From the NCBI GenBank assembly GCA_018335855.1, contig JAGXRM010000018.1, positions 1 through 64,000 on the forward strand: a DNA stretch of 64,000 nt. The letters are read 5' to 3'. The position numbers and the translations under genes are program-made. Positions 6,958 through 46,400 of this stretch are shown one piece after another. Source of the stretch: Clostridiales bacterium. Lineage in GTDB: Bacteria > Bacillota > Dethiobacteria > Dethiobacterales > Dethiobacteraceae. The notes below the pieces were generated by a model. It was given only the letters and a program-made list of their open reading frames with translations. It searched no databases and was not told the origin of the DNA. Every line of letters begins with the position of its first letter. The first letter of the stretch is position 1.

Positions 6958-8571
6958 TTACTGCATATGATGGGCGGTCTTTTGCCGGGCGCGTAAATTC
7001 TCTAAACTGTCCCACGGAGTAGCGGCATACCTTGCGGACCACTGCTGCTGGTTATTCAGGTAGACATCCAGTTGTTCCCGCAGTAGCGGATCGTTGGACC
7101 GGTTGTAAACCTGGAGCGCCGATTCAACCCCGGCAGGACCTCCATGGGATAAGATTTCGACATCAAAGCTGCTGAGTGTTCCCGAAAGATAACGTTCTGC
7201 GTTGTAACGGGCAACAAACCCGTTAGGATTTAAAAGGAAGAGCAGGCAAAGCATCACTGCCCCCGTGACGGCAGCAAGCCTTAAAATAGAGAATTGTCGT
7301 TTTTGCATGGCGATCACCCCGACGTAAAGGACGGCCAGGAATACCAGAAAAATGCTGGGGAGCAGCCGGCGGACAGAGAGTCCGTATGCCCCGATATACA
7401 AGGCCATTTTGCTGAAGGCGGTTGAAATAAACAATAAAGTGAGCAACGACAGAAAAACATTAAAAATTTTCAATATGGGGTTGACGCTACGTTGTTTTTT
7501 AGAAAAAAGATTTGCCGCTGTCAGCAGCGATAAATTGATGGCCGCAATTGTACACAGTTCAAAAAACCCCTTGCGGGCGTATTCGGAATAAACCAACCAG
7601 CCCTCCGGCCGTTCTCCGATAAAAGCTGAGAAAAAATAGGGCAGTTGGCTGACGACAAATACTACGTACAAGCCGCATACCAAGCCCAGCAGGGTGTAAA
7701 CCGTGGCCGACGGCAGCAACCTTAGGGATGATACACCCTTTTCCAAATCGTCTTTTTTGAAGGTGAAACAACCTCTTTTATGAACACTGCCTGTCACCAG
7801 TCCAAAGATGTAGGCTGCTGCCGGAATACCGATAATCATATTAAAGATTAGTACAGTAACTTCATTTCGCATGCCTTGAACGTATTTAAAAATGCTGTTA
7901 GTAATTTTGGCGAAGCCTCCGCTGTCAGCCTCTATCAGCAATGGCAAAACCATACCCCCGATTATAAAAGCGAAAGCAATTCCCAGTGCGATGGAAAAAA
8001 ATTGACTTACTGTCGCCTGTTTTTTTCTTCCCAGAAAGGCAAGGCTTCTAAAATGACTATCAAAGTTTTTGAGTGGAATGAACAGCAGGCCGTTAAGAAA
8101 ATCCAACCCAATAAAGTTACTCGTTTTTCCCAGCAGCGGCAGGCCGGTCGCGCATATCACCCAGTATATTGCACAAAAGAATAATAGTAAACTGCGCCAT
8201 GGTTCCAACCCATGGTTATTCCAAAGAGAGAAGCTGATTCCGGTAAACGCCGTTACCGCCAGCCAAAACCATCCTTCCCCTGAAATAATCACTCCTTTTT
8301 TTCGAAAATAAATAGTTGTAGCCCCTAAGTAGCCGGCGGTAAAGAACGTCACGCTCCATCCCTGCCAGTAAAAAAGTACCCATCGAGCAAAAAGAAACCC
8401 CAATATAAAGACAAAAATAGCAAAAATACCGTCTTTAATGTCCGGTTCAAAAGGTTCTTTTAAGGAGAATGCGGGAACAGCGGGATGTTCCCATTTTTTG
8501 TTGCCGTGTTCCTTCGCTTGCTGCTCCGTATTGCCTGTAGAGACGCACTCATTGCTGCAAATATCAATCAT
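6958..8571 (-). CDS. DUF4173-family polytopic membrane protein
   Basis: The 537-residue protein has a polar N-terminal 45 residues, then about a dozen hydrophobic segments spread to residue 460, and a soluble C-terminal 70 residues. The motif VYSEYARKGFFELC (about 325-340) is the hallmark of DUF4173/DUF4153 membrane proteins. Their biochemical function is unknown. They often sit next to a small Cro-like regulator and a DUF2975 protein, as here. The gene's start overlaps the 3' end of the HTH gene by eight bases, indicating one leftward operon of three genes. Confidence 0.8.
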   Translation of the reverse strand: MIDICSNECVSTGNTEQQAKEHGNKKWEHPAVPAFSLKEPFEPDIKDGIFAIFVFILGFLFARWVLFYWQGWSVTFFTAGYLGATTIYFRKKGVIISGEGWFWLAVTAFTGISFSLWNNHGLEPWRSLLLFFCAIYWVICATGLPLLGKTSNFIGLDFLNGLLFIPLKNFDSHFRSLAFLGRKKQATVSQFFSIALGIAFAFIIGGMVLPLLIEADSGGFAKITNSIFKYVQGMRNEVTVLIFNMIIGIPAAAYIFGLVTGSVHKRGCFTFKKDDLEKGVSSLRLLPSATVYTLLGLVCGLYVVFVVSQLPYFFSAFIGERPEGWLVYSEYARKGFFELCTIAAINLSLLTAANLFSKKQRSVNPILKIFNVFLSLLTLLFISTAFSKMALYIGAYGLSVRRLLPSIFLVFLAVLYVGVIAMQKRQFSILRLAAVTGAVMLCLLFLLNPNGFVARYNAERYLSGTLSSFDVEILSHGGPAGVESALQVYNRSNDPLLREQLDVYLNNQQQWSARYAATPWDSLENLRARQKTAHHMQ

Positions 8572-8797
8572 CTGATTTGCCGCCTTCCTTTCGACTTGCT
8601 CTGTATTCCAGGATGTCTCCCGGCTGGCACTCCAGCGTCTTACATATGGCCTCCAGTGTGGAGAACCGAATTGCTTTGGCCTTCCCGGTCTTGAGGATGG
8701 AGAGATTGGCCGGGCTGATGCCTATGATCTCGGCCAGTTCACCGGAAGGCATTTTTCGCTTGGCCATCATCACATCCAGATTAACTACGATCGGCAT
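8564..8797 (-). CDS. Small Xre/Cro helix-turn-helix regulator (YozG-like)
   Basis: The product is a stand-alone 77-residue HTH_3/HTH_26 domain: MPSGELAEIIGISPANLSIL forms the helix-turn-helix and CKTLECQPGDILEY is the conserved end of this subfamily. It lies between the DUF2975 and DUF4173 genes, overlapping the latter. Such proteins typically repress their own membrane-protein operon. The palindrome at 9311-9327 over the operon's -35 box is the natural operator candidate. The pairing is inferred from position. Confidence 0.85.
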   Translation of the reverse strand: MPIVVNLDVMMAKRKMPSGELAEIIGISPANLSILKTGKAKAIRFSTLEAICKTLECQPGDILEYRASRKEGGKSDD

Positions 8798-8811
8798 TCC
8801 GTCCCCCCCTT

Positions 8812-9261
8812 TTAGATGGTGTAGTCAACTTCGTTTTGCAGTTCTACGGCTTTTGCCAGCACATTTTTCACGACACGGACTATCAGCCCCATAAAGGCTG
8901 CGGCAACCGCCACAAAGATCCACGGGAAATAGTAAAAGGCTGAAACAGTGCCGATGCCCGCCCCCATAAAACAGCTCCAGGAAATCCACCGCAAATAGTC
9001 TACGTTATCTGTGATAAACACTTGCTCCTGCTCAATCCGTCGTAGCAGGCGAAACAGGTTGTAGAGCAGGATTCCCGCTGGGATGCCACCCACGTAGATT
9101 GTGGCAAGAAAGAACGACTTAGTTCCCTGTAGTTCCGCCCGGGAAAAATTCAGAAACCATCGCGTTAGCCACGGAGCGGTTACAATTGTGCCGATCAATC
9201 CGGACATAAAAACCAGGAGACATAATTTGCTCAGGTTGAGGGATTTTTTGTCATTCCACAT
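8812..9261 (-). CDS. DUF2975-family membrane protein
   Basis: The start is placed at the ATG at 9259-9261 (minus strand) because GGAGG lies just upstream. A longer frame to 9384 would run through the promoter. The 149-residue product has four predicted membrane helices (about 15-35, 55-75, 95-115 and 118-138). A DNVDYLRWISW motif in the centre matches DUF2975, a family of small membrane proteins nearly always coupled to a YozG-like HTH regulator. Function unknown. First gene of the leftward three-gene operon. Confidence 0.75.
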   Translation of the reverse strand: MWNDKKSLNLSKLCLLVFMSGLIGTIVTAPWLTRWFLNFSRAELQGTKSFFLATIYVGGIPAGILLYNLFRLLRRIEQEQVFITDNVDYLRWISWSCFMGAGIGTVSAFYYFPWIFVAVAAAFMGLIVRVVKNVLAKAVELQNEVDYTI

Positions 9262-9292
9262 AGCTTCATCCTCCAATCGCTTTATTGGTTGC

Positions 9293-11648: not shown

Positions 11649-11987
11649 GGTATGTCATTGACAATCTCTGGGATAACTAGGAGTCGCGAGTCCGGGTCCA
11701 TGACCCAATCAACAACGTGGATAAGGCTTAACTGCAAACAATAATTACGCTCTCGTTGCTTACTTAGCAGTGTGTCCGCTTACCGCGAGCCTGTAGTGGT
11801 AAACCGGGCGTCGACTAATCGGCTACCGAACCCACGGTTTGCCAAAGCCTTAGGGGAAGGAAATAACACCTGTGCTAGCGTAAATGTATCCTGTCTCAGG
11901 GAGCCCCATACGCGAATCCAAATCTGAGGCTACACTCGTAGAAGCTTTTACTGGTCTGCTTTCGGACAGGTTCGACTCCCCTCTACT
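11649..11987 (+). ncRNA. ssrA: Degenerate tmRNA-like gene
   Basis: The stretch follows the tmRNA plan from end to end. The 5' part GGTATGTCAT..GGGATAAC..GGAGTCGCGAGTC parallels the canonical 5' domain. The tag-entry segment CTTAACTGCAAACAATAATTACGCTCTCGTTGCT (11728-11760) encodes A-N-N-N-Y-A-L-V-A from resume codon GCA 11734. The 3' domain has ACACTCGTAGAAGC..TTTTACTGGTCTGCTTTCGGACAGG and a T-loop GGTTCGACTCC (11969-11979). Defects are also visible: the tag lacks its usual stop and runs to TAG 11794-11796, the 5' 'GGATTCGACGG' block is altered, two G's are missing from the T-stem, and the 3' end reads CTACTTGCAAAAAA with no CCA. A functional ssrA probably lies elsewhere. Confidence 0.7.
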
Positions 11988-12096: not shown

Positions 12097-12882
12097 TTAC
12101 AGAACTTTTTGTGTCACATTTATGGGCATAATTCCATTTTCATTTTTATACTGCCTGGGTGAAATATTATTTAATTGTTTAAATAATATATTGTAGTAGT
12201 TCTGATTATTGTAGCCAACTGCAATAGCAATATCCAATATAGACTTATCTGTATCTCTTAATAATAATTGTTTGCTTCTCTCGATTCTTACCTCATTTAA
12301 AACTTGGGTAAATGTCTTATTTGTATCCTTCTTGAAAACAGAGCAAAAATAGGATTTGCTAATCCCTAGTTTTTGTGAAACACTTTCTACAGTAAGAGGC
12401 TCAAAAAATCTGGTATTAATATGGTCTAAAGCTTTTTTTACATAAAAACTATAGGTACATTCTTTGTTTAGTCTGATAAAATTTGAATTCTCTGCTATAT
12501 TACGGAGTAATGTAATAAGATGAGGGATACAATCAGAGGGCTTATACAACATATTATTTTTAGTCAAAGGATTCGAGGTGTATGGGCCTAAAACATAAAC
12601 ACCCCTGTCAACGTTTTTAGGGCAAATATAAATAACTGCAAAATCAATATTATTTTTTGATAGTACTAAGTGTGCAGTACTATCTTTTTTATTTAGTTCA
12701 TTATCAATTTGAGCGATAATTCCTTGTTCTTGAAAAATAGACTCAGCTATCTGGCTATGCCCTTCATTATGAATAACCATACCTTCTACATCAATTGCTT
12801 TTATAGGTATATGCGTGCATAAGTAAAAATTTACCATAGTGTTAGCTATATGTTTTCTGCCCAATGAACTATGAATCTGCAT
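12097..12882 (-). CDS. AraC-family transcriptional regulator
   Basis: The protein has 261 residues. The C-terminal hundred hold the two AraC helix-turn-helix motifs: LTVESVSQKLGISKSYFCSV (first) and SILDIAIAVGYNNQNYYNIL with the ISPRQYK end (second). The N-terminal 140 residues form an unrecognised sensing domain. It is transcribed divergently from a siderophore ABC importer, so the importer operon is its likely target, with a siderophore the likely co-inducer by analogy to YbtA/Btr-type regulators. That role is inferred from position. Codon use is AT-rich like the importer. Confidence 0.9.
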   Translation of the reverse strand: MQIHSSLGRKHIANTMVNFYLCTHIPIKAIDVEGMVIHNEGHSQIAESIFQEQGIIAQIDNELNKKDSTAHLVLSKNNIDFAVIYICPKNVDRGVYVLGPYTSNPLTKNNMLYKPSDCIPHLITLLRNIAENSNFIRLNKECTYSFYVKKALDHINTRFFEPLTVESVSQKLGISKSYFCSVFKKDTNKTFTQVLNEVRIERSKQLLLRDTDKSILDIAIAVGYNNQNYYNILFKQLNNISPRQYKNENGIMPINVTQKVL

Positions 12883-12980
12883 AAAAAAAACATCCCTTCT
12901 GCGAATATATATAAATATTTTTATAAAAAAAGTAATATGCTCAAAATTAAAATTTTGTTGTATAGTATAGTATAAGAGAA

Positions 12981-12999
12981 GAGAATGAAAATCATTATC
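12981..12999. promoter_or_regulatory. Fur box of the siderophore importer operon
   Basis: GAGAATGAAAATCATTATC matches the 19-bp Fur consensus at 16 positions. It lies 80 bases upstream of the first permease, just after TATAGT/TATAAG -10-like repeats (12961-12976). This predicts derepression under iron limitation. Confidence 0.7.
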
Positions 13000-13078
13000 A
13001 GTCAGCGATTTAATTAATTATATCATATTTAAAAAAGGTGTCAAATAACAATCTAACTATTGAATTTGAGGAGGAGGT

Positions 13079-14023
13079 ATGAAGAGAAGATATTTAATTG
13101 TTGCACTTATTGTGCTCTCATTTACATCACTATTCATCGGAGTAAAAAATATCAATATTTTAGACATAATCCGTCTTGAAGATGACAAAATCCAAATTCT
13201 ATTGATCAGTAGAATACCCCGCCTTGTCAGTATTATCGTGGCAGGTGTCAGCATGAGTATGGCTGGTTTGATCATGCAACAGCTGACAAGGAACAAATTT
13301 GTTTCTCCAACCACTGCTGCCACTGTTGATAGTGCCAGATTGGGCATTTTAGTCTCATTGTTATTATTTTCCTCCTTCAGCAGTTTTACCAAGATGGTTG
13401 TCTCCTTTATGTTTGCTTTGGCCGGAACCTTCTTGTTCATAAAGATCATCAAAAGCGTTAGGTTCAAGGACAAAATCTTCATACCTTTAGTGGGTATAAT
13501 GCTAGGGAATATCATAGACTCCATAACCACTTTTTTTGCTTACAGATATGAACTTGTACAAAATATTTCTTCTTGGCTGTTAGGGGATTTCTCTATGGTA
13601 ATCAGGGGGAGGTATGAGCTTTTATACTTGAGTGTACCTTTGGTGTTTATTACCTACCTCTATGCGAATCAATTCACCGTAGCAGGGATGGGGGAAGATT
13701 TCTCATCAAACCTTGGCCTGAACTACAATAAAGTGGTGAACATAGGTCTTATCATTGTGGCTTTATCCGCATCCCTTGTTGTGATCACTGTTGGCAGAAT
13801 GCCTTTTTTAGGGTTGATTATCCCCAACATCGTCACCATCTACCAGGGTGACAACTTAAAGAAAAATCTACTGCCTACAGCGATGTTTGGTGCGGTATTT
13901 CTGCTCTTTTGTGATATTTTAGGCCGGGTGATCATTTATCCCTATGAGATTTCCATCGGATTAACTGTGGGTGTGATAGGCAGTGCCCTATTTCTGTACT
14001 TGCTTTTTTGGAGGGATCAGTAG
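13079..14023 (+). CDS. FecCD-family iron-siderophore ABC permease (YclN/FatD-like)
   Basis: The 314-residue integral membrane protein has the FecCD/BtuC fold: around nine hydrophobic segments, ISRIPRLVSIIVAGVSMSMAG (about 40-60) near the N-terminus and GRMPFLGLIIPNIV (about 238-251) preceding the ATPase-coupling region. It begins directly after GAGGAGGAGGT and is the first gene of a permease-permease-ATPase-lipoprotein operon, the order of yclNOPQ/fatDCB-type siderophore importers. The next gene starts at the base after its stop codon. Likely substrate: a ferric catecholate or petrobactin-like siderophore, by gene order only. Confidence 0.9.
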   Translation: MKRRYLIVALIVLSFTSLFIGVKNINILDIIRLEDDKIQILLISRIPRLVSIIVAGVSMSMAGLIMQQLTRNKFVSPTTAATVDSARLGILVSLLLFSSFSSFTKMVVSFMFALAGTFLFIKIIKSVRFKDKIFIPLVGIMLGNIIDSITTFFAYRYELVQNISSWLLGDFSMVIRGRYELLYLSVPLVFITYLYANQFTVAGMGEDFSSNLGLNYNKVVNIGLIIVALSASLVVITVGRMPFLGLIIPNIVTIYQGDNLKKNLLPTAMFGAVFLLFCDILGRVIIYPYEISIGLTVGVIGSALFLYLLFWRDQ

Positions 14024-14977
14024 ATGTCCTCCAAAAAGAAGCTGTTATTGTTGTTAGGATGCCTGCTTTTAGTATCGATAGTGCTCTATCTGACCATTAG
14101 CCTGAATAGTCGTAACTGGGATTTTGCGTTGCCCAGAAGAATCCCAAAGGCAGCCGCCATATTACTTACGGGTTCGGCAATCGCTTATTCAACGCTGATA
14201 TTTCAAACAATCACAAACAATAGAATTTTGACACCAAGCATATTAGGGCTAGATTCTCTTTATCTGCTGGTCCAAACATCCATGGTTTTTGTGCTTGGCT
14301 CTAGAACTCTGGAAGTCATCAGCGGTACCAGTAACTTTTTGTTATCTATCTTAGTGATGCTTGTTTTCTCTGGGGTACTTTATAAGCTCTTGTTTAGAAA
14401 AGAGAACCAGAACATCTACTTTTTATTGCTTGTAGGGATCATCTTTAGCACCTTTTTCCAGAGCATATCATCCTTCATGCAAATGCTGATTGACCCAAAT
14501 GAGTTTAGCATAGTTCAAAATAGAATGTTTGCTAACTTTCATAATGTAAAAACAGATTTACTGACTATCTCTGTGGTGATTTTTGCAACCTTAGCTCTAT
14601 ACACCTATCCCTATATTAGCAAACTGGATGTCCTTTCATTAGGCAGGGATCATGCCATAAACCTGGGGATTGATTACGATAAAGTAGTCAAGCGAATGCT
14701 GCTGGTTATCGTAATCATGGTATCTGTGGCGACTGCATTAGTTGGACCCATTACCTTTTTAGGGCTGCTGGTGGTCAATCTGGCCAGAGAGCTGCTGCAC
14801 ACCTACAGACACCACGACTTGATTATGGGGTCCATGCTATTAAGTGGCATCGCCCTAATAGGCGGCCAGTTAATGGTTGAAAGGATTTTCAACTACCACA
14901 CACCCATTAGTGTCATGATCAATCTTGTAGGAGGTATTTATTTTATCTATCTACTGCTAAGGGAGAGAAAAGGATGA
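14024..14977 (+). CDS. FecCD-family iron-siderophore ABC permease (YclO/FatC-like)
   Basis: This is the second 317-residue permease subunit, forming a heterodimer with the preceding one. It opens with a signal-like membrane segment, then RRIPKAAAILLTGSAIAYST, matching the first FecCD motif. VGPITFLGLLVVNLARELL (about 242-260) is the cytoplasmic coupling region contacting the ATPase. The start codon directly follows the stop of the upstream gene and its end overlaps the ATPase start by four bases (ATGA-type coupling), indicating stoichiometric synthesis. Confidence 0.9.
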   Translation: MSSKKKLLLLLGCLLLVSIVLYLTISLNSRNWDFALPRRIPKAAAILLTGSAIAYSTLIFQTITNNRILTPSILGLDSLYLLVQTSMVFVLGSRTLEVISGTSNFLLSILVMLVFSGVLYKLLFRKENQNIYFLLLVGIIFSTFFQSISSFMQMLIDPNEFSIVQNRMFANFHNVKTDLLTISVVIFATLALYTYPYISKLDVLSLGRDHAINLGIDYDKVVKRMLLVIVIMVSVATALVGPITFLGLLVVNLARELLHTYRHHDLIMGSMLLSGIALIGGQLMVERIFNYHTPISVMINLVGGIYFIYLLLRERKG

Positions 14978-15729
14978 TTGAAGTTAAAAATCTGACGAAG
15001 ATTTATGGAGAAAAAAGGGTTGTAGATAGTGTTTCCATAAAGATTCCCAAAAATAAAATAACATCCTTTATAGGGCCTAATGGAGCAGGGAAAAGCACGC
15101 TGCTGTCCATGCTCTGCCGACTCTTAAAAAAAGACGAAGGAGAAATATTTATCGGTGGAAAAGAAATTGGGCAATGGGACACAAAAGAATTATCCAAAAA
15201 AATCTCTATATTAAAGCAATCTAACCATATGGATATTCGCTTGACTATACGGGAGCTGGTGAGTTTCGGGAGATTTCCTTATTCCCAGGGCAATTTATCA
15301 AAGGATGATGAGCAACAGATTGACAAGGCCATAGCTTATATGAAACTTGAGGATATTCAGCATAAGCTTATCGATCAATTAAGCGGCGGCCAAAGGCAAC
15401 GTGCTTACATCGCCATGGTGATTGCTCAAAACACTGAGTACATATTGTTGGATGAACCCCTTAATAATTTGGATATGAAACATGCCGTGGAGATTATGAA
15501 GATCCTTAGGTGGTTAGTGGAGAATCTGGATAAAACAGTGGTCATCGTTATCCACGATATCAACTTCGCATCATGCTACTCCGACTATATTGTAGCCATG
15601 AATGAAGGCAAGTTAATTGAGGAAGGAGCCGCCGCCAGCATCATCGATGAAAAAGTACTATGCGGGATTTTTGATATGGATATCACAATACAAAATATCA
15701 ATAATCAAAAAATTTGCGTGTATTTCTAA
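14974..15729 (+). CDS. Iron-siderophore ABC transporter ATPase (YclP/FepC-like)
   Basis: The 251-residue ATPase has all ABC landmarks: Walker A GPNGAGKST (about 33-41), Q-loop around KQSN, signature LSGGQRQRA (about 135-143), Walker B YILLDEPLNNLD (about 153-164) and the switch histidine in VIHDINFA (about 190-197). It energises the two upstream permeases. The length matches FepC/YclP. It overlaps the upstream permease gene by four bases. Confidence 0.93.
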   Translation: MIEVKNLTKIYGEKRVVDSVSIKIPKNKITSFIGPNGAGKSTLLSMLCRLLKKDEGEIFIGGKEIGQWDTKELSKKISILKQSNHMDIRLTIRELVSFGRFPYSQGNLSKDDEQQIDKAIAYMKLEDIQHKLIDQLSGGQRQRAYIAMVIAQNTEYILLDEPLNNLDMKHAVEIMKILRWLVENLDKTVVIVIHDINFASCYSDYIVAMNEGKLIEEGAAASIIDEKVLCGIFDMDITIQNINNQKICVYF

Positions 15730-18563: not shown

Positions 18564-19775
18564 ATGAACGGATTGTCTTTTAAAAAGCTGACTGCACCAG
18601 AACACCTGCTTACTGTTGCAGTCATTCTTCTGATCATTATTCTGGCTAAGATTCCCACGGGGTTTCCCACTAACGCCTATCCCGACAGTACCCGGGCCGC
18701 AGCCCTGGTGCTGGAAGTCAATAACAACAATGTCCACAGTACAATTGGCTTTGTCTTTCAGGGTGAGCAAATTTGCAAAGTTCAGGTTTTAAACGGGCCT
18801 TTCAAAGGCCATGAAACATACGCACGCAACATTTTTTCCGGGCGGCTGGAAGCAGACAAAGTATTTACTCCCGGAGACAAAGCACTGGTTGTTATAGATT
18901 ATACCCGGGGTGAGATCCGACATGTGAATATTATCGACCATTATCGTATTGATCTGGAAGCCCTGCTCTTCGGACTATTTGCACTGTTTCTCATTCTCTT
19001 TGCCCGCTGGACCGGTGTTAAGGCGCTCCTTTCTTTTGTCCTGACTGTAATGATGATCTGGAAGTTCTTAATTCCCCTGCTTCTGAAAGGTTGGAATCCC
19101 ATAGCCATTTCCCTGGTATTTGTGGTGATTGTCACGGTATTCGTAATTCTTCTTGTTGGCGGGCTTAACCGTAAATCCCTGGCAGCGATACTGGGTTCCC
19201 TGGCAGGGACAGCACTGACCGGGGTACTGGCCATTATTTTTGGCAGCAGCTTTAAAATACACGGTGCGGTTTTGCCCCATTCCGAATCGTTGTTATACTC
19301 CGGATACGCGCATCTCAATCTTACTGAAATTCTCGTTGCCGTCGTGTTTATCGCTTCGGCCGGAGCACTGATGGATCTGGCCATGGATATTGCTGCAGCC
19401 ATTCATGAAGTGGTCGAGAAAAACCCAGAAATCCCTGCAAATGAAGCAATTCAATGCGGACTAAATGTGGGACGGGCCGTTGTAGGCACAATGACCACTA
19501 CCTTGCTGTTAGCTTACACCGGCGGCTTTATCGCTCTGTTAATGGTCTTTATGGCCCAGGGCACCCCTTTGATAAACATTTTAAATCTAAAATACGTCTC
19601 CAAAGAAATCATGCACACCATCGTGGGCAGTTTCGGTTTGGTAACGGTGGCGCCGCTCACAGCGCTTATCGCAGGCGTTCTGTTCACAAAAAAACCCCTT
19701 AAAAGTTACGTGCACACCCTGCCCGAACACGTACAAAACCCACTTGGAATACCGGGAGACCCCCATAAACCTTAG
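18564..19775 (+). CDS. YibE/F-family membrane protein
   Basis: ATG 18564 follows GGAGG (18554-18558), so an upstream in-frame TTG is ignored. The 403-residue product has one N-terminal membrane anchor (about 10-30), an extracytoplasmic beta-rich segment (about 40-120: GPFKGHETYARNIFSGR), then about seven further membrane helices. The motifs VDVVFIASAGALMDLAMDIA-like (about 258-277) and GRAVVGTMTTTLLLAYTGG identify the YibE/YibF (PF07907) family. Function is unknown. A transport role has been suggested for relatives but nothing here specifies a substrate. The gene is followed by pseudogene debris. Confidence 0.85.
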   Translation: MNGLSFKKLTAPEHLLTVAVILLIIILAKIPTGFPTNAYPDSTRAAALVLEVNNNNVHSTIGFVFQGEQICKVQVLNGPFKGHETYARNIFSGRLEADKVFTPGDKALVVIDYTRGEIRHVNIIDHYRIDLEALLFGLFALFLILFARWTGVKALLSFVLTVMMIWKFLIPLLLKGWNPIAISLVFVVIVTVFVILLVGGLNRKSLAAILGSLAGTALTGVLAIIFGSSFKIHGAVLPHSESLLYSGYAHLNLTEILVAVVFIASAGALMDLAMDIAAAIHEVVEKNPEIPANEAIQCGLNVGRAVVGTMTTTLLLAYTGGFIALLMVFMAQGTPLINILNLKYVSKEIMHTIVGSFGLVTVAPLTALIAGVLFTKKPLKSYVHTLPEHVQNPLGIPGDPHKP

Positions 19776-19799
19776 CCCAACACCCGTAGTTTGTAACCC

Positions 19800-20137
19800 G
19801 GGGACGTTCTTCTCGAGTCGCAAATATATTACCTTACTCAGATCTGTGGGGTGCAACAGTTCAACGGCCCCGCCGCAGGAGCCTTCTCCTAAAAAGGAAC
19901 TTATTCTGGGAACGACCACAAGTACTTATGATTCCGGACTCCTTGATTACCTTCTCCCCTATTTCGAAGAAGCTAACAATTACAAGGTAAAAAGTGGTTT
20001 CTCTCGGCACCGGTGCTGCTTTAGAACTGGGCAAAAACGGTGACTGCGATCTGGTTCTTGTTCACGCCAGACAGGCAGAACTGGACATGGTGGAACAGGG
20101 GCACTACATTGACCGCTATAGCTGGTACCTGCTTTGA
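19800..20137 (+). pseudogene. tupA: Tungstate-binding protein TupA fragment, frameshifted
   Basis: One frame reads a lipoprotein-like VGCNSS then ELILGTTTSTYDSGLLDYLLPYFEE, the start of TupA/ModA-like tungstate binding proteins. One extra A in the A-run at 19989-19993 shifts the frame, and the sense continues as VVSLGTGAALELGKNGDCDL and LVHARQAELDMVEQGHYIDR before TGA 20135-20137. The remaining two thirds of the protein and the TupBC transporter genes are absent. This is a decayed import system component. Confidence 0.8.
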
Positions 20138-20202
20138 TTGACACGGATATTTCGAAAAAAGAGTTCCGCAGGAACTGGTCCCGACTGATCCAGAAGGCTT
20201 AA

Positions 20203-20502
20203 ATCCCAGTTCCCGAATACGCCACTAACGAATATGGTGAAACATATGGCTCTGCACTGTATGCGACCTCGCCAGAGACTGAGCCAGATTTAGTGCTAGC
20301 AGTGGGTGTGGGGGGTACTGCTGGATATGTAAGAGCAACCGATCTTAATGGGCCGATGCCAAAAACGCCAGAGGAAGCTTTGCGACAAATGAGGAGCAAC
20401 GCGGGCAAGAACCGCCGTATCCCAATGTATGACATTGACGGTAGAACTGTCATTGGTGTATTCGTCATCAGCGGCGGAGATGTCATTGAAGAAACTAACT
20501 AA
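20203..20502 (+). pseudogene. C-terminal fragment of a secreted/BlaR1-associated hypothetical protein
   Basis: The frame is open from 20203, directly after an in-frame stop, to TAA 20500-20502, giving about 99 residues. EYGETYGSALYATSPETEPD and YVRATDLNGPMPKTPEEAL match, from memory, the tail of extracellular or M56/BlaR1-associated hypothetical proteins of Bacilli and Clostridia. There is no start codon with a ribosome site near the beginning, and the N-terminal portion is missing. I read this as a truncated gene; an internal GTG start is less likely. Confidence 0.5.
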
Positions 20503-20562
20503 TAACCACGGATCATGACCCCTTTAAAAAAAGATAAGCGGAACAATAATTTATAATAATTT

Positions 20563-21121: not shown

Positions 21122-21832
21122 ATGACGGAACTCCACGGAAGCATAATTAAGGTTCAGCAGCTAACTGAGCAGGATAAAAAGGCTATGTACTCTTTAATGG
21201 AAGAATATTATGATGGTACAATCTTTCCTGTATTTATAGAAGATTTAGAGGAAAAAGATTACTGCATTTTGCTTTTTGATACAGACAACAGAATAAAGGG
21301 TTTTTCAACTCAAAAGATCATGTCTGTAGAAGTGGGAGCAGAGAAGGTTTATGGTGTATTTTCAGGTGACACCATCATTCACAAGGATTATTGGGGTAGT
21401 ATCGAACTTTATAAGTTATTTGCCAAATATTTTATAAGCCATGGCAAGCAGTATGGAAGCTTTTACTGGTTCCTAATTTCAAAGGGCTACAAGACCTACA
21501 AGATGCTTCCGCTGTTTTTTAAAGAGTTTTACCCCAATTGCAAAGAAAAAACTCCGGCTTATGCTCAGGAGATTATCCATTCCTTTGGAAGTGCAAAATA
21601 TCCTGAAGAATATAACAGGGAAAGTGGCGTTATTCTTTATAAAGGAATAAAGGATAAGCTGAAGGTGGGGGTTGCAGATATAACTGAAAAGCAGCTCAAG
21701 GATTTAGATGTCAGCCATTTTTTAAAACTGAATCCGGAATATTTCAACGGTAATGACCTCATCTGCATAGCAAAGCTTACTGAAGAGAATCTGAAGCCTA
21801 ATGTGAGAAGGCTGCTATTAGGGACGTGTTAA
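21122..21832 (+). CDS. GNAT-like protein, first gene of the GH3/radical-SAM cluster
   Basis: The 236-residue soluble protein begins MTELHGSIIKVQQLTEQDKK and has an N-acetyltransferase-like strand pattern (CILLFDTDNRIKGFSTQKIM, then VFSGDTIIHKDYWGS), but no clear R/Q-x-x-G-x-G/A acetyl-CoA loop, so activity is uncertain. AAGGAG precedes the ATG by ten bases. The stop codon is one base before the next ATG, so it is the leader of a five-gene operon. Together with the GNAT at the other end, it suggests two acylation or N-modification steps flanking the GH3 and radical SAM enzymes. Confidence 0.65.
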   Translation: MTELHGSIIKVQQLTEQDKKAMYSLMEEYYDGTIFPVFIEDLEEKDYCILLFDTDNRIKGFSTQKIMSVEVGAEKVYGVFSGDTIIHKDYWGSIELYKLFAKYFISHGKQYGSFYWFLISKGYKTYKMLPLFFKEFYPNCKEKTPAYAQEIIHSFGSAKYPEEYNRESGVILYKGIKDKLKVGVADITEKQLKDLDVSHFLKLNPEYFNGNDLICIAKLTEENLKPNVRRLLLGTC

Positions 21833-21833
21833 A

Positions 21834-23375
21834 ATGTACAATCGCATGATTTGCTTTTTAATAAATTCTTTCTTATGCCTATTATATAAGAAGGAATTTG
21901 TTGATTATATGAAAATCAGAAATGTTAGAACTCTGCAGCAAAAAAGGCTGACAGATATTTTAAGCAAGAATAAGTCCTGTGAATACGGAAAAAAATATGA
22001 TTTTTCAAAGATAGGATCTATTGAGGAGTTTCAAAAAAAGGTACCGCTGACAATATATGAAGATTATAAGCCTTACATTGAAAAAATAAAAAAAGGTGAA
22101 AAAGGTATTCTGACGGCAGAAGATGTACTCCTTCTGGAGCTTTCCAGCGGATCCACATCTGCTTCAAAGCTCATTCCCTATACGAACGCTTTAAAGGAAG
22201 AATTTCAAAAGGGTATAAGGCCCTGGCTTTATGATCTGTATTCTGGGTATAAGGGTATTAAATGGGGCAATAGCTACTGGTCTGTAACTCCTGCTGTTAC
22301 AAAAAATGAGTATACAGAGGGTTGCATTCCTATTGGCTTTGAAGATGATAAGGAGTATTTTGGAACCCTGGAGAAAAAGCTCCTCGATGTAATATTTGCA
22401 GTGCCCAGCGATGTAGTTAAGGCGGACAATATAGAGGAGTTTTACTATAAGACTGCCCTGGGGCTATTGAAATGCAGGAATTTAACCTTGATTTCAGTCT
22501 GGAATCCAAGCTTCTTAATATTGCTTCTGAATTATATGGAGAAGAATGCAGAAGTGTTGGCAACGGATATTTCTGTTAAAAACAGGAAGAGGGCTGTGGA
22601 AGTAAGGGGTTGCCTGAAGGAAAAGGCCTTTGAAAAGCTGTGGAAGAATCTAAAGGTGATAAGCTGTTGGAGCGATGGAAATGCAAAGGCATACGCAGAC
22701 AAGCTTAAAGAGATTTTCCCTCATTCAGTTATACAGCCCAAGGGTCTTCTTGCCACGGAGGGATTTGTGTCTTTTCCGATGTTGGAGGCAGGAGGGGCGG
22801 TTCTTAGCATAAAGTCCCACTTTTTTGAGTTTGAAGCAGTGGATGACAGCAGAATATACCTAGCTGACGAGTTGGAAAAGGGCAAGGAATACTCTGTGAT
22901 ATTGACTACTTCCGGAGGTTTTTACAGGTACAGGTTGAAGGATATTATTCAGGTGACAGGTTTCATGGAAAAGAAACCTGTCATTAAATTCCTTGGAAAA
23001 CAGGACAAGGTTTCCGATCTCTTTGGTGAAAAATTGAATGAAACCTTTATTAAGGTTACCATAGAAAGAATGGGAGTAGAAACAGGTTTTTTCATGTTGG
23101 CCCCGGAGAAAAACAGGTATGTTCTGTACATTCAGGCAGAAAAAACAGCCCTTGCCGAAGGCCTTGAGGCTGCACTAAGAGAGAATTTTCATTATGATTA
23201 CTGTAGAAAGTTGGGTCAGCTTAAACCATTAAAGGTTTTCCTGCTTACTGGAAATCCTGAAGAAGAATATCTTGAGGAATGTGTGAGCCGTGGACAGCGG
23301 CTTGGGGATATCAAGCCGGTGGCATTGCATCTACAGGGCGGCTGGGATAAAGTCTTTAAGGGGGATTATTTATGA
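21834..23375 (+). CDS. GH3-family acyl-adenylating amido synthetase
   Basis: The 513-residue product has the hallmark GH3 (auxin-responsive) ANL-superfamily motifs: the ATP-binding loop SSGSTSASK (104-112), GLLATEGFVSF (the conserved glutamate of motif 2), and FYRYRLKDIIQVTGF (motif 3), followed by KFLGKQDKVSDLFGEKL. Plant GH3 enzymes adenylate a carboxylic acid and join it to an amino acid. Bacterial members are mostly uncharacterised. It starts one base after the preceding stop and overlaps the next gene by four bases. In this context it likely makes an amide or thioester intermediate for the radical SAM enzymes. Substrates cannot be read from the sequence. Confidence 0.85.
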   Translation: MYNRMICFLINSFLCLLYKKEFVDYMKIRNVRTLQQKRLTDILSKNKSCEYGKKYDFSKIGSIEEFQKKVPLTIYEDYKPYIEKIKKGEKGILTAEDVLLLELSSGSTSASKLIPYTNALKEEFQKGIRPWLYDLYSGYKGIKWGNSYWSVTPAVTKNEYTEGCIPIGFEDDKEYFGTLEKKLLDVIFAVPSDVVKADNIEEFYYKTALGLLKCRNLTLISVWNPSFLILLLNYMEKNAEVLATDISVKNRKRAVEVRGCLKEKAFEKLWKNLKVISCWSDGNAKAYADKLKEIFPHSVIQPKGLLATEGFVSFPMLEAGGAVLSIKSHFFEFEAVDDSRIYLADELEKGKEYSVILTTSGGFYRYRLKDIIQVTGFMEKKPVIKFLGKQDKVSDLFGEKLNETFIKVTIERMGVETGFFMLAPEKNRYVLYIQAEKTALAEGLEAALRENFHYDYCRKLGQLKPLKVFLLTGNPEEEYLEECVSRGQRLGDIKPVALHLQGGWDKVFKGDYL

Positions 23376-24709
23376 AAATAGCATTCTTGGCTCCAGCCGG
23401 TGCCATGCATAGATACAACGGCAACTTTGGGAAGTCTCTTCATTATGCCCCCCTGACCCTGACAACATTGGCGGCGCTTGTTCCAAAAGAACTTGCTGCA
23501 GAAGTTGTTATCCATGATGAAACTGCAGGAAAAATACCGCTGGAGCTAGATGCAGACATGGTCTGCATAACCTGCATAACCGGAACATCTTCGCGGTGTT
23601 ATGCATATGCAAACTATTTCAGAAGTTTAGGAAAAACTGTAGTCCTGGGAGGAGTACATCCTACTTTGATGCCAGATGAAGCTGCGGAGCATGCCGATGT
23701 TGTGGTTACAGGCTTTGCTGAGCAGAGTTTTCCCCAGATGCTACTGGATTACCAAAATGGAACTTTAAAGTCAAGGTATATCCAGGACATAAACTTTACG
23801 ATCAATAATAGGGTGACGCCAAGACGGGAGTTGCTTAATAGGAAAAGGTACATTACCATGAACAGCATTGAGGCTGTGCGCGGTTGCTCCCTACCCTGCA
23901 CTTTCTGTGCATACCCTGCAGCCTTTGGCAAGACAGTGTACAAAAGGCCGGTGAAGGAGATTATCGCTGAGATCGAAGCGCTGCATTCGAGGGAAGTGCT
24001 CTTCCCAGATGTGAATCTCATTGCTGACCGGGCTTTTGCCGTGGAACTGTTTACAGCATTGATACCCCTGAAAAAAATGTGGTTTGGACTCGTTACATCA
24101 GCTATCGGCATGGATGATGAGCTTATTTCACTATTTCAAAAGAGCGGTTGCAAAGGCCTTCTCATTGGCTTTGAGTCAATAAGTCAGTCTTCCCAGAAAT
24201 TCATACACAAAGGCATAAACAAGGTTATGGAGTACGGTGAGCTTATGAAAAAGCTTCACAACGCAGGAATTGTTGTACAGGGATGCTTTGCCTTTGGTGG
24301 TGACGATGAGGATACTTCGGTCTTTGAGAGGACTGTGGAAATGGTAATTAAAACTAAAATAGACCTGCCGAGATATTCAATTCTTACTCCCTTTCCGAAA
24401 ACAGAATATTACGGACAGCTTGAATTGGAAAATAGGATTGTTGAAAGGGATTGGGCCATGTATGACGTTGAGCACTGCGTCTATATTCCAAAGAAGATGA
24501 CAAAAGATGAATTGGAAGCCGGCACAGAATGGGCCTGGAGGGAGACCTATACATTCAGCTCGATTTTAAAGAGGCTGGCACCTTTCAAAACCAGCCCCAT
24601 TCTCGCTCTTTTTGTCAATTTAGGCTACAGAGGCTATGCAGGTAAATTTGCCACGTTCACAAGAGATGTTATGATTGATAATAGTGACATCCCACAGGTG
24701 AACAGATGA
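23372..24709 (+). CDS. B12-binding radical SAM enzyme (first copy)
   Basis: The 445-residue protein has an N-terminal cobalamin-binding Rossmann domain (about 1-135; VVLGGVHPTLMPDEAAEHAD) and a radical SAM barrel whose cluster motif CSLPCTFC gives cysteines 172, 176 and 179 (CxxxCxxC). The 'GCKGLLIGFES' strand further supports the fold. This class performs methylations or ring and carbon-skeleton changes at unactivated carbons, with methylcobalamin and S-adenosylmethionine. It overlaps both neighbours by four bases (ATGA), so it is translationally coupled to the GH3 gene and to the second radical SAM gene. Confidence 0.9.
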   Translation: MKIAFLAPAGAMHRYNGNFGKSLHYAPLTLTTLAALVPKELAAEVVIHDETAGKIPLELDADMVCITCITGTSSRCYAYANYFRSLGKTVVLGGVHPTLMPDEAAEHADVVVTGFAEQSFPQMLLDYQNGTLKSRYIQDINFTINNRVTPRRELLNRKRYITMNSIEAVRGCSLPCTFCAYPAAFGKTVYKRPVKEIIAEIEALHSREVLFPDVNLIADRAFAVELFTALIPLKKMWFGLVTSAIGMDDELISLFQKSGCKGLLIGFESISQSSQKFIHKGINKVMEYGELMKKLHNAGIVVQGCFAFGGDDEDTSVFERTVEMVIKTKIDLPRYSILTPFPKTEYYGQLELENRIVERDWAMYDVEHCVYIPKKMTKDELEAGTEWAWRETYTFSSILKRLAPFKTSPILALFVNLGYRGYAGKFATFTRDVMIDNSDIPQVNR

Positions 24710-26037
24710 AGATTACATTTATTCTTCCTGCAATAGGTAAAAAGCCCGGACAGAAATATATCGGAACCTGGAAGATGGAGCCGCTAACCATAGCGGTTTT
24801 AAAGGCGCTAACTCCGGAAGATATTGAAACTGAACTCTTCGATGACCGCATTGAGCTAATTAATTATGACACAAAAACAGATCTTGTAGCGATAACTGTT
24901 GAAACCTACACTGCAAAGAGAAGCTACCAGATCGCAGAAGAATTCAAAAAACGCGGCGTCACCGTCGTTATGGGAGGCTACCATACAAGCCTGATACCTG
25001 AGGAAGCCGCTCTCCATGCGGATTGTATTTTTACAGGAAATGCAGAAAAGCTATGGGGTGAGTTGCTTAGGGATTTCAAGGAAAACAGACTGAAAAAAAT
25101 CTACAAAGGTGGCATCGCATTTTCAGATATCCCACCTGACAAAAGTATATTCACCGGGAAAAAATATCTCCCCATCTCTCTGGTGGAAACCGGCAGGGGC
25201 TGCTGCCATTCCTGTGAGTTCTGTGCTATTTCAGGCTACTATAATTGTACCTATTACAAACGGGCTCAGGCTAATATAATCACTGATCTGGAAAAATCCC
25301 CATACAAATATCATTTTTTTGTTGATGATAACCTTATGGCAGATACAGCCAATGCTCAGGCACTTTTTGATAAGATAGCACCACTGAAAAAAAAGTGGGC
25401 TGGTCAGGGAACTCTTACTATGGCTCGGGATCCGGACCTGCTGAAAAGGATGAAAAAGAGCGGCTGTAATCTTATCCTGATCGGGTTTGAATCCCTTGAA
25501 GAAGAGAACTTAAGGCAGATGAACAAGTCTTGGAATATGGCCATTGGAGAACGGAATGAACTTGTAAAAAGAATACATGATGCAGGTATTGGCATCTATG
25601 CAACCTTTGTTTTTGGCTACGATGGTGATACTTCTGAAACCTTCCAGAAGACCTTAGAGTTTGCGGAAAAAAATAAGTTTTACACTGCGGCCTTCAATCA
25701 TCTGCTGCCTTTTCCCGGCACCCCTTTATACAGAAGGCTGAAGGAGGAAGACAGACTTTTGTATGATAAATGGTGGCTTGAGGATGATTATAATTACGGT
25801 GATCTTGCCTTCAAGCCCAAGAATATGTCTCCAGAGCAAATGAGCATGCTTTGCAGGCTTGCAAGAAAAGAATTTTCAAGACTACCTGTAACAATAGGCC
25901 GCGGTATCAGCAGCATGAGACAGACAAGCCCGCTTATGTGGGCGCTGTTCTGGGTTATGAATCTGCGCCTTGGTGAAGAAATTGATGAGAAAATCAATGT
26001 TCCAATAGGGAGAAATTTGGATGAAATGCCGAAATGA
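24706..26037 (+). CDS. B12-binding radical SAM enzyme (second copy)
   Basis: The 443-residue paralogue of the preceding gene has the B12-binding domain at about 1-130 (VTVVMGGYHTSLIPEEAALHAD), cluster motif CCHSCEFC (cysteines 166, 170, 173) and SGCNLILIGFES in the barrel. The two copies have diverged substantially, so they are likely to act on successive intermediates and not as redundant copies. The 3' end overlaps the next gene by 17 bases. Unlike lipid-related HpnJ-type relatives, its partners are GH3 and GNAT genes, so no characterised pathway is matched. Confidence 0.9.
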   Translation: MKITFILPAIGKKPGQKYIGTWKMEPLTIAVLKALTPEDIETELFDDRIELINYDTKTDLVAITVETYTAKRSYQIAEEFKKRGVTVVMGGYHTSLIPEEAALHADCIFTGNAEKLWGELLRDFKENRLKKIYKGGIAFSDIPPDKSIFTGKKYLPISLVETGRGCCHSCEFCAISGYYNCTYYKRAQANIITDLEKSPYKYHFFVDDNLMADTANAQALFDKIAPLKKKWAGQGTLTMARDPDLLKRMKKSGCNLILIGFESLEEENLRQMNKSWNMAIGERNELVKRIHDAGIGIYATFVFGYDGDTSETFQKTLEFAEKNKFYTAAFNHLLPFPGTPLYRRLKEEDRLLYDKWWLEDDYNYGDLAFKPKNMSPEQMSMLCRLARKEFSRLPVTIGRGISSMRQTSPLMWALFWVMNLRLGEEIDEKINVPIGRNLDEMPK

Positions 26038-26926
26038 AAAATTTGCAATAAACCTCGCAAAACCCGAAGATGCAGGGCAACTGCTGAGAATATACGAATG
26101 TGGGGACTTTAAAGGAAATATTTCTGTCCTATACACACGACGGCCTGATCCCTTCAAGTCCTTATTGCTTGAAGGCGAAAAGGTGCTCATACCGATTATC
26201 ACTGATAAAGAGAACGGCATTATAGTTGGAATGGGTGTTTGCATTATTCGGAAGGCTTATATCAATGGTAAAATAAGAAATGTCGGCTACCTGACAGGTC
26301 TGAAAGGACTACCTGAGTACAGAAAGCGCGTACCATTCATTTCCGAAGTTTATAAATATCTGCATGCGTTGACAAAAGATGATGTGGATATTTATTACAC
26401 AACTATCTTAAAAGAGAATGAAAGTGTTCAGAAGATGCTAGAGAAGAAAAGAAAAAACATGCCTGAATACAGAAGCATAGGAGAATATACTGTATACTGC
26501 TTCAAAACCGGCACTTCACTGAAGGAAAAAGGTTACACTCTGGAAATTGGGAACATAACGGAACTGGAGCGACGATACAATGACGGTTCGGGTAGTTTTA
26601 ACTTTTCACCGATTAATGTGAATCTACATGGGTTGCGAGACGAAGATACATATGTCCTCCGCAATCATACTGGAGAAGCTGTGGCGTCCTGTGCAGTCTG
26701 GAACCAGCAGAGCTACAAGCAGTATGTGATTACCCAATACAGGGGGATATACCGATATTTAAAAAGGTTTCCGCTGAAATTAACGGGTTATCCCAATCTG
26801 CCCCAAGAAAATATTCCTGCAAACTATGGAAGTATTGCGCTACTAACTGTCAAAGGTAATGATCCGCTATTGGCAGAGTATTTTATCAGAAGAGTGGCCG
26901 AAAAATCGGAGAACTATGCCTTCTAA
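26021..26926 (+). CDS. GNAT-family acyltransferase, last gene of the GH3/radical-SAM cluster
   Basis: The 301-residue product's first 150 residues show a GNAT fold (FAINLAKPEDAGQLLRIYE, then GYLTGLKGLPEYRKRVPFIS as the acyl-CoA pyrophosphate loop region). The second half (about 165-301) is a second GNAT-like lobe, giving a two-lobed protein. It begins inside the radical SAM gene (17-base overlap) and ends the operon. The following 370 bases contain no gene. A role as N-acyltransferase in a small-molecule pathway is inferred from context. Confidence 0.7.
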   Translation: MKCRNEKFAINLAKPEDAGQLLRIYECGDFKGNISVLYTRRPDPFKSLLLEGEKVLIPIITDKENGIIVGMGVCIIRKAYINGKIRNVGYLTGLKGLPEYRKRVPFISEVYKYLHALTKDDVDIYYTTILKENESVQKMLEKKRKNMPEYRSIGEYTVYCFKTGTSLKEKGYTLEIGNITELERRYNDGSGSFNFSPINVNLHGLRDEDTYVLRNHTGEAVASCAVWNQQSYKQYVITQYRGIYRYLKRFPLKLTGYPNLPQENIPANYGSIALLTVKGNDPLLAEYFIRRVAEKSENYAF

Positions 26927-27300
26927 TGCTAGGTCTTTTTGAAAATCACCCATATATAAGTTCCATGGATAGATTAAAATGTATAAAGTACCAGAGCCGC
27001 CTATACACGGTTCATTGGCAGGGCAATTCCCTTACACTAGATAACAGACCGGTAAATCTTGAGGTTGGATTGCTTTAATATTGATGCTGCTCCTGAAAGA
27101 TTGTACTCACTGTCAACTCAGCATTCCATAGTTAACCTCACAAGAAAATATTATACATAGTCTTAAACCATCATCTGTCTGATGATGTTAAAATGAAAAA
27201 TAAGGGGCAGCAATTGCCGCCCCTTAACTCAGTGATGGTTTAAGAAACTCCATTCTCTTGAACCAATTGGTAGCTCAATTGAAAAACCCTATGCGATAAT
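26927..27300. other. Convergent intergenic region with no gene
   Basis: This stretch lies between the rightward GH3/radical-SAM operon and the leftward katG. The only notable structure is the nested inverted repeat at 27161-27245. The first 230 bases show no ORF, hairpin or promoter of note. Confidence 0.5.
27161..27245. repeat. Nested inverted repeat, probable bidirectional terminator
   Basis: Outer arms TCTTAAACCATCA (27161-27173) and TGATGGTTTAAGA (27233-27245) are a perfect 13-bp inverted repeat. They enclose an almost perfect 24-base palindrome AAGGGGCAGCAATTGC... (27202-27225). The inner hairpin can end transcripts arriving from either side. The outer arms make the whole 85-bp unit look like a small transposon-derived element. 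Confidence 0.55.
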
Positions 27301-43434: not shown

Positions 43435-46400
43435 TTGAGTTTCCCATACATTTACTATTCTTATAAAATCGGTGCAGCATTTCTTGTGGTGTTGCTATTA
43501 TGGTTTGTTATTTTTAGGGTGCGGAAAAAAAGAAATATTAATATCAGTGATGCTTCTCTGACAGTGGAGGAGCTTGCGGATTATGCCAGAAGAATGGCCT
43601 TAGAGCATTCAGTTTCTTCAAAAAGAAACATATTAAATTGGCCTATGACATGGATGAATGATAATTATAGTTTTATACTTCAGGTGTATAAAGGGCTAAA
43701 TGATGATGTAATACAGAAGCGAACAGTACCGCCTGCTGCAGAATGGTTGCTTGATAATTTTTATACGATTGAAGAACAGGTTAAAATCATTAGAAGAGAT
43801 CTGTCGAAGCAGCACTATTATAGTTTGCCAGTTTTGAAAAAGGGCCCTTATAAGGGTTATACAAGAATTTTTGCCATCGCAATGGAGTTGGTTTCAAATA
43901 CAGACGGGCAGATTGAAGAAAGTACACTGCTCAAATATCTAGATGCATATCAATCTCAAAACATTCTTTTTGAGAGAGAGATCTGTGTAATTCCGACAAT
44001 GATTAGACTGGCTCTCATAGAGAACATCAGAGTAATAAGTGAAAAAATAAAGGAAACCCAAAAGCAATGGAATTTAGCTGATGAAATAGTTGAAAAATTA
44101 TGGGCTGAAAATGCGGTTGATTTAGAAAAGATAAGCAAGCTATTTAAGAACAATATTGCTGTAATTGATGAAGCTAGTCCATCCTTTGTAGAGCACCTGT
44201 TCTACAGATTGAGAAGATCTGGACGTAGCTACTCAAATGTTTCACGATATATTGAAGAAGCCCTTGATAAATTTCACACGACAATAGAAATTATTGCTCA
44301 AAAAGAACATAATGCCCAGGCTGTTAGCACTGTTTCCATGGGGAATTGCATAACGAGCCTCAAATATGTTTCCATTCTTAATTGGGTTGATTTGTTTGAT
44401 TCAGCAAGTTACTTGGAAAAGATTCTAAGGCAGGATCCTGATGGAACATACAATCTTATGGATATCAACTCCCGTAATTACTACAGGAGACAAATTGAAA
44501 AGATAGCAAAAGAATATGGAGTTTCGGAGCTCCGCATAGCACGGGAAGCCATAGATCTCGCGCGAAAAGCTTCACTGGAAAATAACGAGCTTGTGGATGA
44601 CAGATCTCGGAGAAAATCCCACGTGGGATACTATATAGTGGGTGATGGGGAAAGAAGTCATGAAAGTAGGCGAAAAAGAAAGACAACGTTCTTTACTAAC
44701 ATCTCACGTTTGGTAAAAAATTCTCCTGGCATCATATATTTGGGTTCAATAGGCGTTCTCACCATGCTCATCGTTACATTTGCCATAGGCTATGCCATGA
44801 ACTTCTCAGGAGCAAATTATCTATATTTTGCAATCATAGCTGGGGTAGCAGTAATGATTCCTGCTTCAGAGATGGCTGTCAATATAGTGAATTGGCTCGT
44901 TTGCAGAGTGAAACAGCCGGCAGTTTTTCCACGGCTAGAGCTAAAGGAAGGCATTCCAGATACTTTGAGTACTATGGTTGTTATACCAGCGTTGCTCAGT
45001 GATGAAAAACGGGTAGCAGAACTATTAGAAAACATGGAAAATCATTATCTTGCAAATTGCGAAGATAATTTATATTTCGCTTTAATCGGTGCTTTTAAAG
45101 ATTCACATGGGCCGAGCAATAGTGATGATCATAGCGTCTTGTGGGAAGCCTTTGCGGGAATCAAGGCTTTGAATGTAAAGTATGCAAAAGAAGGAAAAGA
45201 TATCTTTTATTTTTATAATCGACTTAGGAAATTTAATGAAAGCGATAATAACTGGACAGGTTGGGAACGAAAAAGAGGAGCTTTAATGGAATTCAATGAA
45301 GTGCTCCTCGGTTCACAAGAAACGAGTTTCTTATTTTATTCCAATGTATTGCTCCCAGCTAAAAATATAAAATATGTTATAACTCTCGATGCAGACACGG
45401 TCTTACCCTTGGGAATGGCTAAAAAAATGATAGGTACTATGGCCCATCCTCTCCATACGCCAGTCATTGATAGTAACAAGGGTATTGTTACCGAGGGGTA
45501 TGGTCTGATGCAACCTAGAATTTCCTTTGATATGGTTAGCTCAAACAGATCCATTTTCTCCAGAATTTATACAGGGCAGGAGGGAATCGATCCCTATGCC
45601 AGTGCTATTTCCGATGTGTACCAAGATCTTTTTGGCGAAGGGATTTTTACAGGGAAGGGTATCTACGATCTACGGGTTTTTCAAAGCATATTAAAAGATG
45701 CAGTACCTGAAAATGCCATCCTTAGCCATGATTTGTTGGAAGGCTCCTATGTTAGAGCTGCACTGGTTACCGGACTGGAATTGGTAGATTCTTATCCATC
45801 AAAATATAATTCCTATATGGCAAGGCTCCATAGATGGATTAGAGGAGATTGGCAGTTAATACCATGGTTAGGCAGGAAGATTTATAATAAAAACAAAGAA
45901 TTAGTAAAAAATCCGCTATCATATATTTCCATTTGGAAGATGGTTGACAACTTAAGAAGAAGCCTTGTGGCTCCAGCTATCATGGTTTTGCTGTTTTTAG
46001 GTTTTAGTATTCTTCCGGGCAGTGGCTACTTTTGGGCTGGATTTGCTATAACTCCACTGTTACTTCCTCTGGCACTTATCCTTTGGGGACAGCTGTTTAC
46101 TGGTGGGCCGAAAACTGACAGAATAAAGAGGCATATTTCAGGCTACTTTGGACTAAAAGCTTCCTTGTTTCAATTCTTATTGTCCATTGCTTTTCTGCCA
46201 TATCAGGCAGTAATAGCTTTGAATGCTATAGTGACAACACTTACACGTGTCTTTATAACCAAAAAAAATATGTTGGTATGGGTAACATCCGCCGATGCTG
46301 AAAAGGGTCAAAGCAACTCTTTAAAAAGCTATTTATCTGCCATGGGAGCAAGCTCACTTGGGGGTTTTGTCATTGCTGCCATGGCATACTATTTTAAGCC

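Follow-up and report, generated by a model that had tools for sequence, protein, structure and literature searches.

Organisation of the operon and its flanks

The window, a 64,000-nucleotide stretch of a Clostridiales bacterium contig (JAGXRM010000018.1), contains five open reading frames on the plus strand. They are spaced by a gap of 1 base followed by overlaps of 4, 4 and 17 bases, just as the first-pass annotation had described. The first gene, g1 (21122..21832), encodes a protein of 236 aa which has a GNAT fold and belongs to an unnamed family; it is the marker gene of the cassette. It is followed by an adenylate-forming amide ligase of the GH3 family (21834..23375, 513 aa), which was assigned by Pfam, plant GH3 structures and a phylogenetic tree, and by two B12-binding/radical SAM proteins, namely rS1 (23372..24709, 445 aa) with a CxxxCxxC cluster motif and its paralogue rS2 (24706..26037, 443 aa). 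The last gene, g5 (26021..26926), encodes a putative double-GNAT acyltransferase resembling N-myristoyltransferase (NMT).

All five genes had been taken to be intact. This holds for g1, GH3, rS1 and rS2, the frames of which are open, but not for g5, which is shortened by a frameshift near 26925. Its frame stops at 26926, while intact relatives (L009, L010, L011 and others) are about 60 residues longer and share a conserved ...LEVGLL end. The missing end was located in the window by tblastn with g5 of L011 (58% identity over 65 aa), where it occupies a different frame and extends to 27078; this remainder (26917..27078, plus strand) encodes the conserved ...RPVNLEVGLL C-terminus. As it sits in another frame, the window copy is either frameshifted or carries an assembly error, and the cassette is probably impaired at g5. 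Compared with L011, nonsynonymous change was far below synonymous change, itself at or near saturation, for GH3, rS1, rS2 and g5 as far as its break.

Immediately before the operon, at 19744-20510, lies degraded sequence that had been annotated as pseudogenes. It is indeed degraded, but reads as one gene with its open frames split by frameshifts, presumably for a tungstate-type binding protein resembling TupA. On the right-hand side, a nested 13-nt inverted repeat (27161..27245) between g5 and the convergent katG surrounds a strong terminator-like stem (27201-27226) for katG on the minus strand. The minus-strand RNA of this region folded with z = -6.6 against shuffled sequences. A mobile repeat was ruled out by the single copy in the genome and the structure of a hairpin terminator, so that the former "IR element" is not a repeated element at all. 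The argument for acquisition that was drawn from the flanks is weak for this reason.

Elsewhere in the window, a tmRNA gene (Rfam RF00023) was located on the plus strand at 11660-11983, and an open frame of 2933 aa at 43435-52236, which may encode a protein of the cyclic beta-glucan synthase type.

The GH3 ligase

GH3 enzymes form acyl-adenylates and amides. The assignment of the second gene to this family was borne out by Pfam, with 177, 66 and 32 bits for the GH3 N, central (GH3_M) and GH3_C domains (cut-off 23.6 each), and by plant GH3 structures, which matched at E 2.5e-20. Among 24 cassette GH3s, the adenylate-binding columns Ser/Gly/Lys, Thr-Glu and Arg-Tyr-Asp were invariant or nearly so. 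The homology to the plant acyl-amido synthetases JAR1, GH3.12 and GH3-1 extends over the N-terminal and central domains; the cassette enzyme differs from them in being bacterial and encoded in an operon with different partners.

A function of bacterial GH3 proteins in ornithine-lipid synthesis was first assigned in 2025 with OlsH, a characterised member which ligates free fatty acids to ornithine with the use of ATP and magnesium; other clades are expected to make other acyl amides (PMC12493201). Like this N-acylornithine synthetase, the cassette GH3 is bacterial, has the GH3 fold with conserved adenylating motifs and likely forms an acyl amide. Unlike OlsH, it is accompanied by radical SAM and GNAT-fold genes and not by an OlsI-like gene. 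The cassette GH3s formed one clade in the tree (100/100), apart from other Bacillota GH3s and from OlsH-like planctomycete GH3s, which are themselves below the cut-off of the OlsH model NF052613. The window GH3 reached 49.7 bits on this model (cut-off 620), and the ornithine-lipid pathway via OlsH was ruled out by this score and the separate clade.

The radical SAM pair

rS1 and rS2 are 33% identical. The Radical_SAM domain was above the Pfam cut-off in both, in agreement with the first annotation, and the B12-binding domain was above it in rS1 (35.9 bits) and just below it in rS2 (28.5 bits; cut-off 32.1). CxxxCxxC was present in 60 of 61 homologues and invariant in the rS1 and rS2 alignments. 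The DxHxxG motif of the B12 domain was absent from all 61. In the tree, rS1 and rS2 formed two clades of their own, and the extra radical SAM copies found at some loci belonged mostly to the rS2 clade and in some cases to that of rS1.

BchE, which oxidises its substrate anaerobically, has an aerobic counterpart in AcsF. The best-scoring NCBIfam relatives of the pair were BchE (TIGR02026), the best match of rS1, with 81.8 bits for rS1 and 70.4 bits for rS2, and HpnJ (TIGR03471) with 79.9 and 92.2 bits, respectively, all far below the equivalog cut-offs of 481 and 577.6. The domain layout is shared with these enzymes, of which BchE is a ring-forming radical SAM enzyme of the B12 type (PMC13331322), but the low scores and the fixed pairing of rS1 with rS2 set the cassette proteins apart. 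Moderate scores were also obtained for the ladderane-associated TIGR04072; they were far below its cut-off and lower than those for BchE and HpnJ. The nearest solved structure by sequence was for both proteins AprD4 (PDB 6fd2), the radical SAM diol-dehydratase of apramycin biosynthesis, with rS1 scoring well below the cut-off of the AprD4 family. A role in anti-phage defence was discarded, as it was suggested only by matches of about 20 bits of the two radical SAM proteins to an uncharacterised candidate model.

The GNAT-fold proteins g1 and g5

The description of g1 and g5 as acetyltransferase-like held at the level of the fold more than that of sequence families. g1 matched no Pfam or NCBIfam family, but its AlphaFold (AF2) model (pLDDT 93) retrieved mostly GNAT acetyltransferases as top Foldseek matches (best E 5e-6), and 23 columns were invariant across 13 relatives. 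g5 gave only a weak GNAT signal in Pfam. The Q/RxxGxG/A pattern of the CoA P-loop occurred in 3 of 35 g1 proteins, in none of them at the expected site, and the canonical P-loop of g5 is atypical or not at the expected place. The acyl donor may therefore not be an ordinary acyl-CoA, although genuine GNATs with atypical P-loops exist.

The model of g5 is a double-GNAT fold resembling those of eukaryotic NMT and the Eis-type enzymes. Its best Foldseek match was NMT (E 4e-12, TM about 0.6), with other double-GNAT enzymes scoring nearly as well. It is distinguished from these enzymes by an identity of about 10%, the atypical P-loop and the lack of a sequence-profile match to NMT. The C-termini of nearly all g5 relatives coincide and read [E/D]xxxL, an end that is missing from the window frame. 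This fixed C-terminus may correspond to that of NMT, where the C-terminal carboxylate is the catalytic base (PMC7048800). Given the fixed C-terminus, the NMT-like fold of the model and the use of its own carboxylate by NMT, g5 probably employs its C-terminal carboxylate in the same way. The truncated g5 of the window is therefore predicted to be inactive.

Recurrence and distribution of the cassette

When the window GH3 was used as query against 84,980 species genomes, 13 loci were obtained. All 13 GH3 relatives adjoin at least one rS1/rS2 homologue and most of them also g1 and g5, so that the conserved co-occurrence in distant taxa, which had been named as support for a pathway, was found. 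The set g1, GH3, rS1, rS2 and g5 is present in metagenome-assembled genomes of Bacillota, Synergistota, Elusimicrobiota and Planctomycetota, and one of Syntrophobacterales has part of it. Overall, the cassette occurs in two gene orders and spans at least five distant phyla of bacteria. The order g1-GH3-rS1-rS2-g5 is complete in L009, L010, L012/L091, L015 and L020 and agrees for the part on the contig in L011, L016, L018, L022 and L023. L012/L091 belongs to a named strain, Anaerotalea alkaliphila F-3ap. The second order, rS1-rS2-g5-g1-GH3, was seen in L013, L014, L021 and L024; in the first two of these, one more gene lies within the set or next to it. L019 is rearranged in yet another way, and L017 has a short partial copy. 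This recurrence across phyla, together with a nonsynonymous divergence from the nearest relative that is far below the synonymous one, places the five-gene set beyond chance. A larger conserved operon in Bacillota was ruled out, as the neighbours change from locus to locus. One match (G946/L089, E 1e-10) had no cassette genes nearby and was rejected.

The distribution is patchy. The cassette was present in 4 of 399 genomes of the window's phylum and in 2 of 98 of its class, both from the same genus; g1 was found in 20 of 246 Planctomycetota and in about 1% or less of three other sampled phyla. The copy from the same genus as the window (L043) has different surroundings, adjoining what we take from its sequence to be a carbamoyl-phosphate-synthase-like gene, and is only 52-76% identical. 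Patchy presence and flanks that are unrelated from locus to locus fit horizontal transfer, with loss as the alternative. The acquisition of the cassette as a unit, as initially proposed, is plausible on these grounds and from the different location of the same-genus copy, but receives little support from the right-hand inverted repeat. In L043, GH3 matches at 7638-9285 fall in two frames (7638-8924 and 9064-9285); this copy may also be broken, or the break may be a draft error.

No transporter, regulator or immunity gene was constantly found beside the cassette across the loci examined, which fits a product that is kept in the cell. Radical SAM genes of the SPASM type or other classical types lie near the cassette in L013, L021, L022, L068 and L071, without a conserved position.

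Alternation with a Rieske oxygenase in Planctomycetota

In Planctomycetota, the core g1-GH3-g5 was accompanied by rS1/rS2 at nine loci and by a Rieske oxygenase (Rieske2) at seven, but never by both (Fisher 9e-5 on 16 loci, a significance that is inflated by the relatedness of the genomes). L068 was counted among the nine with only rS2 visible, as its contig starts there, and three short contigs with neither type are outside the 16. Among the Rieske2 loci, the oxygenase gene lies several kilobases from the core in L072 and L073, g5 was not seen in L075, L076 and L080, and GH3 was also not seen in the latter two. The nearest NCBIfam family of Rieske2 is 4beta-methylsterol monooxygenase. Cytochrome oxidase (COX1) was encoded in 7 of 7 genomes with Rieske2 and in 11 of 26 of the radical SAM type.

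Both types of core adjoin genes for FA_desaturase, an AurF-like diiron enzyme, a hexapeptide acyltransferase and PAP2. An FA_hydroxylase that comes closest to OlsE, the hydroxylase of ornithine lipids, was found beside the Rieske-type cores, and SnoaL/DUF4440 genes beside those with radical SAM genes. These neighbours point to an oxidised lipid, though enzymes with an FA_desaturase fold can have amino acids as substrates and the FA_desaturase neighbour has a weak match to GntB. Lipid-type neighbours are confined to the planctomycete branch, and the Bacillota copies stand alone.

One core without radical SAM pair or Rieske2 (L088) adjoins two proteins of about 446 aa (12790-15518). They had no Pfam match and carry NHxxxDG-like motifs, by which they are possibly condensation-type acyltransferases; missed radical SAM enzymes were ruled out, as no radical SAM similarity was detected. 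In L072 and L073, a protein of about 890 aa adjoins the OlsE-like hydroxylase, and the copy in L072 is without a Pfam match.

Proposed pathway and alternatives

The operon is tentatively read as encoding the synthesis of a fatty amide, similar to an amino lipid, that is kept by the cell, an explanation which we consider the best one and to which we give somewhat under an even chance. In the scheme that we infer, with regard to the lipid nature of the product as well as every chemical step, GH3 would convert a carboxylic acid into an acyl-adenylate, with a fatty acid as the probable substrate, and join it to an amine, as suggested by its family and by OlsH. g1 and g5 would add or transfer acyl groups. 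rS1 and rS2, probably together or in sequence, would perform an oxidation without oxygen, be it hydroxylation, desaturation or ring formation, which the Rieske oxygenase would take over in some Planctomycetota. The scheme is suggested by genomic evidence, namely the conservation of the cassette, the distant kinship to OlsH, the lipid-enzyme neighbours in planctomycetes, the Rieske alternation and the COX1 counts; BchE as the best match of rS1, the NMT-like g5 with its fixed C-terminus and the lack of a constant transporter across the loci are also consistent with it. Against it stand the possible action of FA_desaturase-fold enzymes on amino acids, as hinted at by the weak GntB match, the lack in g1 and g5 of a canonical CoA P-loop where one is expected, and the restriction of lipid-type neighbours to one branch. 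Furthermore, the alternation is counted on related genomes, with Rieske2 at a distance in L072 and L073, and a GH3 enzyme alone is no proof of a fatty-acid substrate.

The same genes could serve a small-molecule natural product, with GH3 and the GNAT-fold proteins building a short acyl-amino-acid or peptide-like amide that the radical SAM enzymes C-methylate or rearrange. B12-type radical SAM enzymes are commonly C-methyltransferases (PMC13331322), the AurF-like and FA_desaturase-fold neighbours could act on amino-acid-type substrates, and both the extra radical SAM and SPASM copies, which look like tailoring diversity, and the patchy distribution would be typical of such clusters. We nevertheless regard this product as doubtful, since export, resistance and regulatory genes are not conserved, the OlsE-nearest FA_hydroxylase and PAP2 adjoin the core in planctomycetes and g5 resembles a long-chain acyltransferase fold. 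Methylation or rearrangement by the radical SAM pair, as put forward in the first-pass annotation, is likewise not favoured over oxidation in view of the BchE/HpnJ and AprD4 relationships and of the alternation between the pair and a Rieske oxygenase. The alternation also bears on a lipid pathway in which the pair would methylate acyl chains or couple them by carbon-carbon bonds, in a tetraether- or ladderane-like manner, instead of oxidising them, as a Rieske oxygenase is not expected to stand in for either reaction. In archaea, lipid chains are joined through sp3 carbon-carbon bonds by radical SAM enzymes (PMC11186832), and several loci have multiple radical SAM copies; still, the moderate scores on TIGR04072 stay far short of its cut-off and under the BchE and HpnJ scores, and we judge chain coupling or methylation unlikely. 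It appears very unlikely that in the window strain the operon has lost its function and survives as a decaying remnant. The frameshift in g5, the degraded upstream neighbour and the absence of the cassette from almost the whole class would agree with decay, but the other four genes are open, GH3, rS1 and rS2 are under strong amino-acid constraint compared to L011, and one frameshift in a draft assembly could stem from an error in sequencing.

The oxidised fatty-amide scheme can be taken one step further: the radical SAM pair would perform anaerobically the very oxidation of an amide lipid for which the Rieske enzyme of sister clusters uses oxygen, in the manner of BchE/AcsF, and the lipid would belong to an undescribed class made by an NMT-like acyltransferase and a new clade of GH3 enzymes. 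In this full form, the proposal is rather unlikely to hold.

None of the five genes reached an NCBIfam equivalog cut-off, and the open-access literature yielded no described pathway that combines GH3 with radical SAM, GNAT, Rieske or aminolipid functions, a search by which a report in a subscription journal could be missed. The earlier statement that no characterised pathway has this combination thus agrees with the libraries and papers searched. The component families are known, while their combination, the GH3 clade and the g1 family appear undescribed. The cassette defines a GH3 clade of the kind expected in the work on OlsH, the partners of which stay fixed across at least five phyla. Its two alternatives, radical SAM pair and Rieske oxygenase, provide a clean genetic system for asking if radical SAM enzymes take the place of oxygenases with an identical substrate, and the cassette would give two unnamed GNAT-fold families a pathway.
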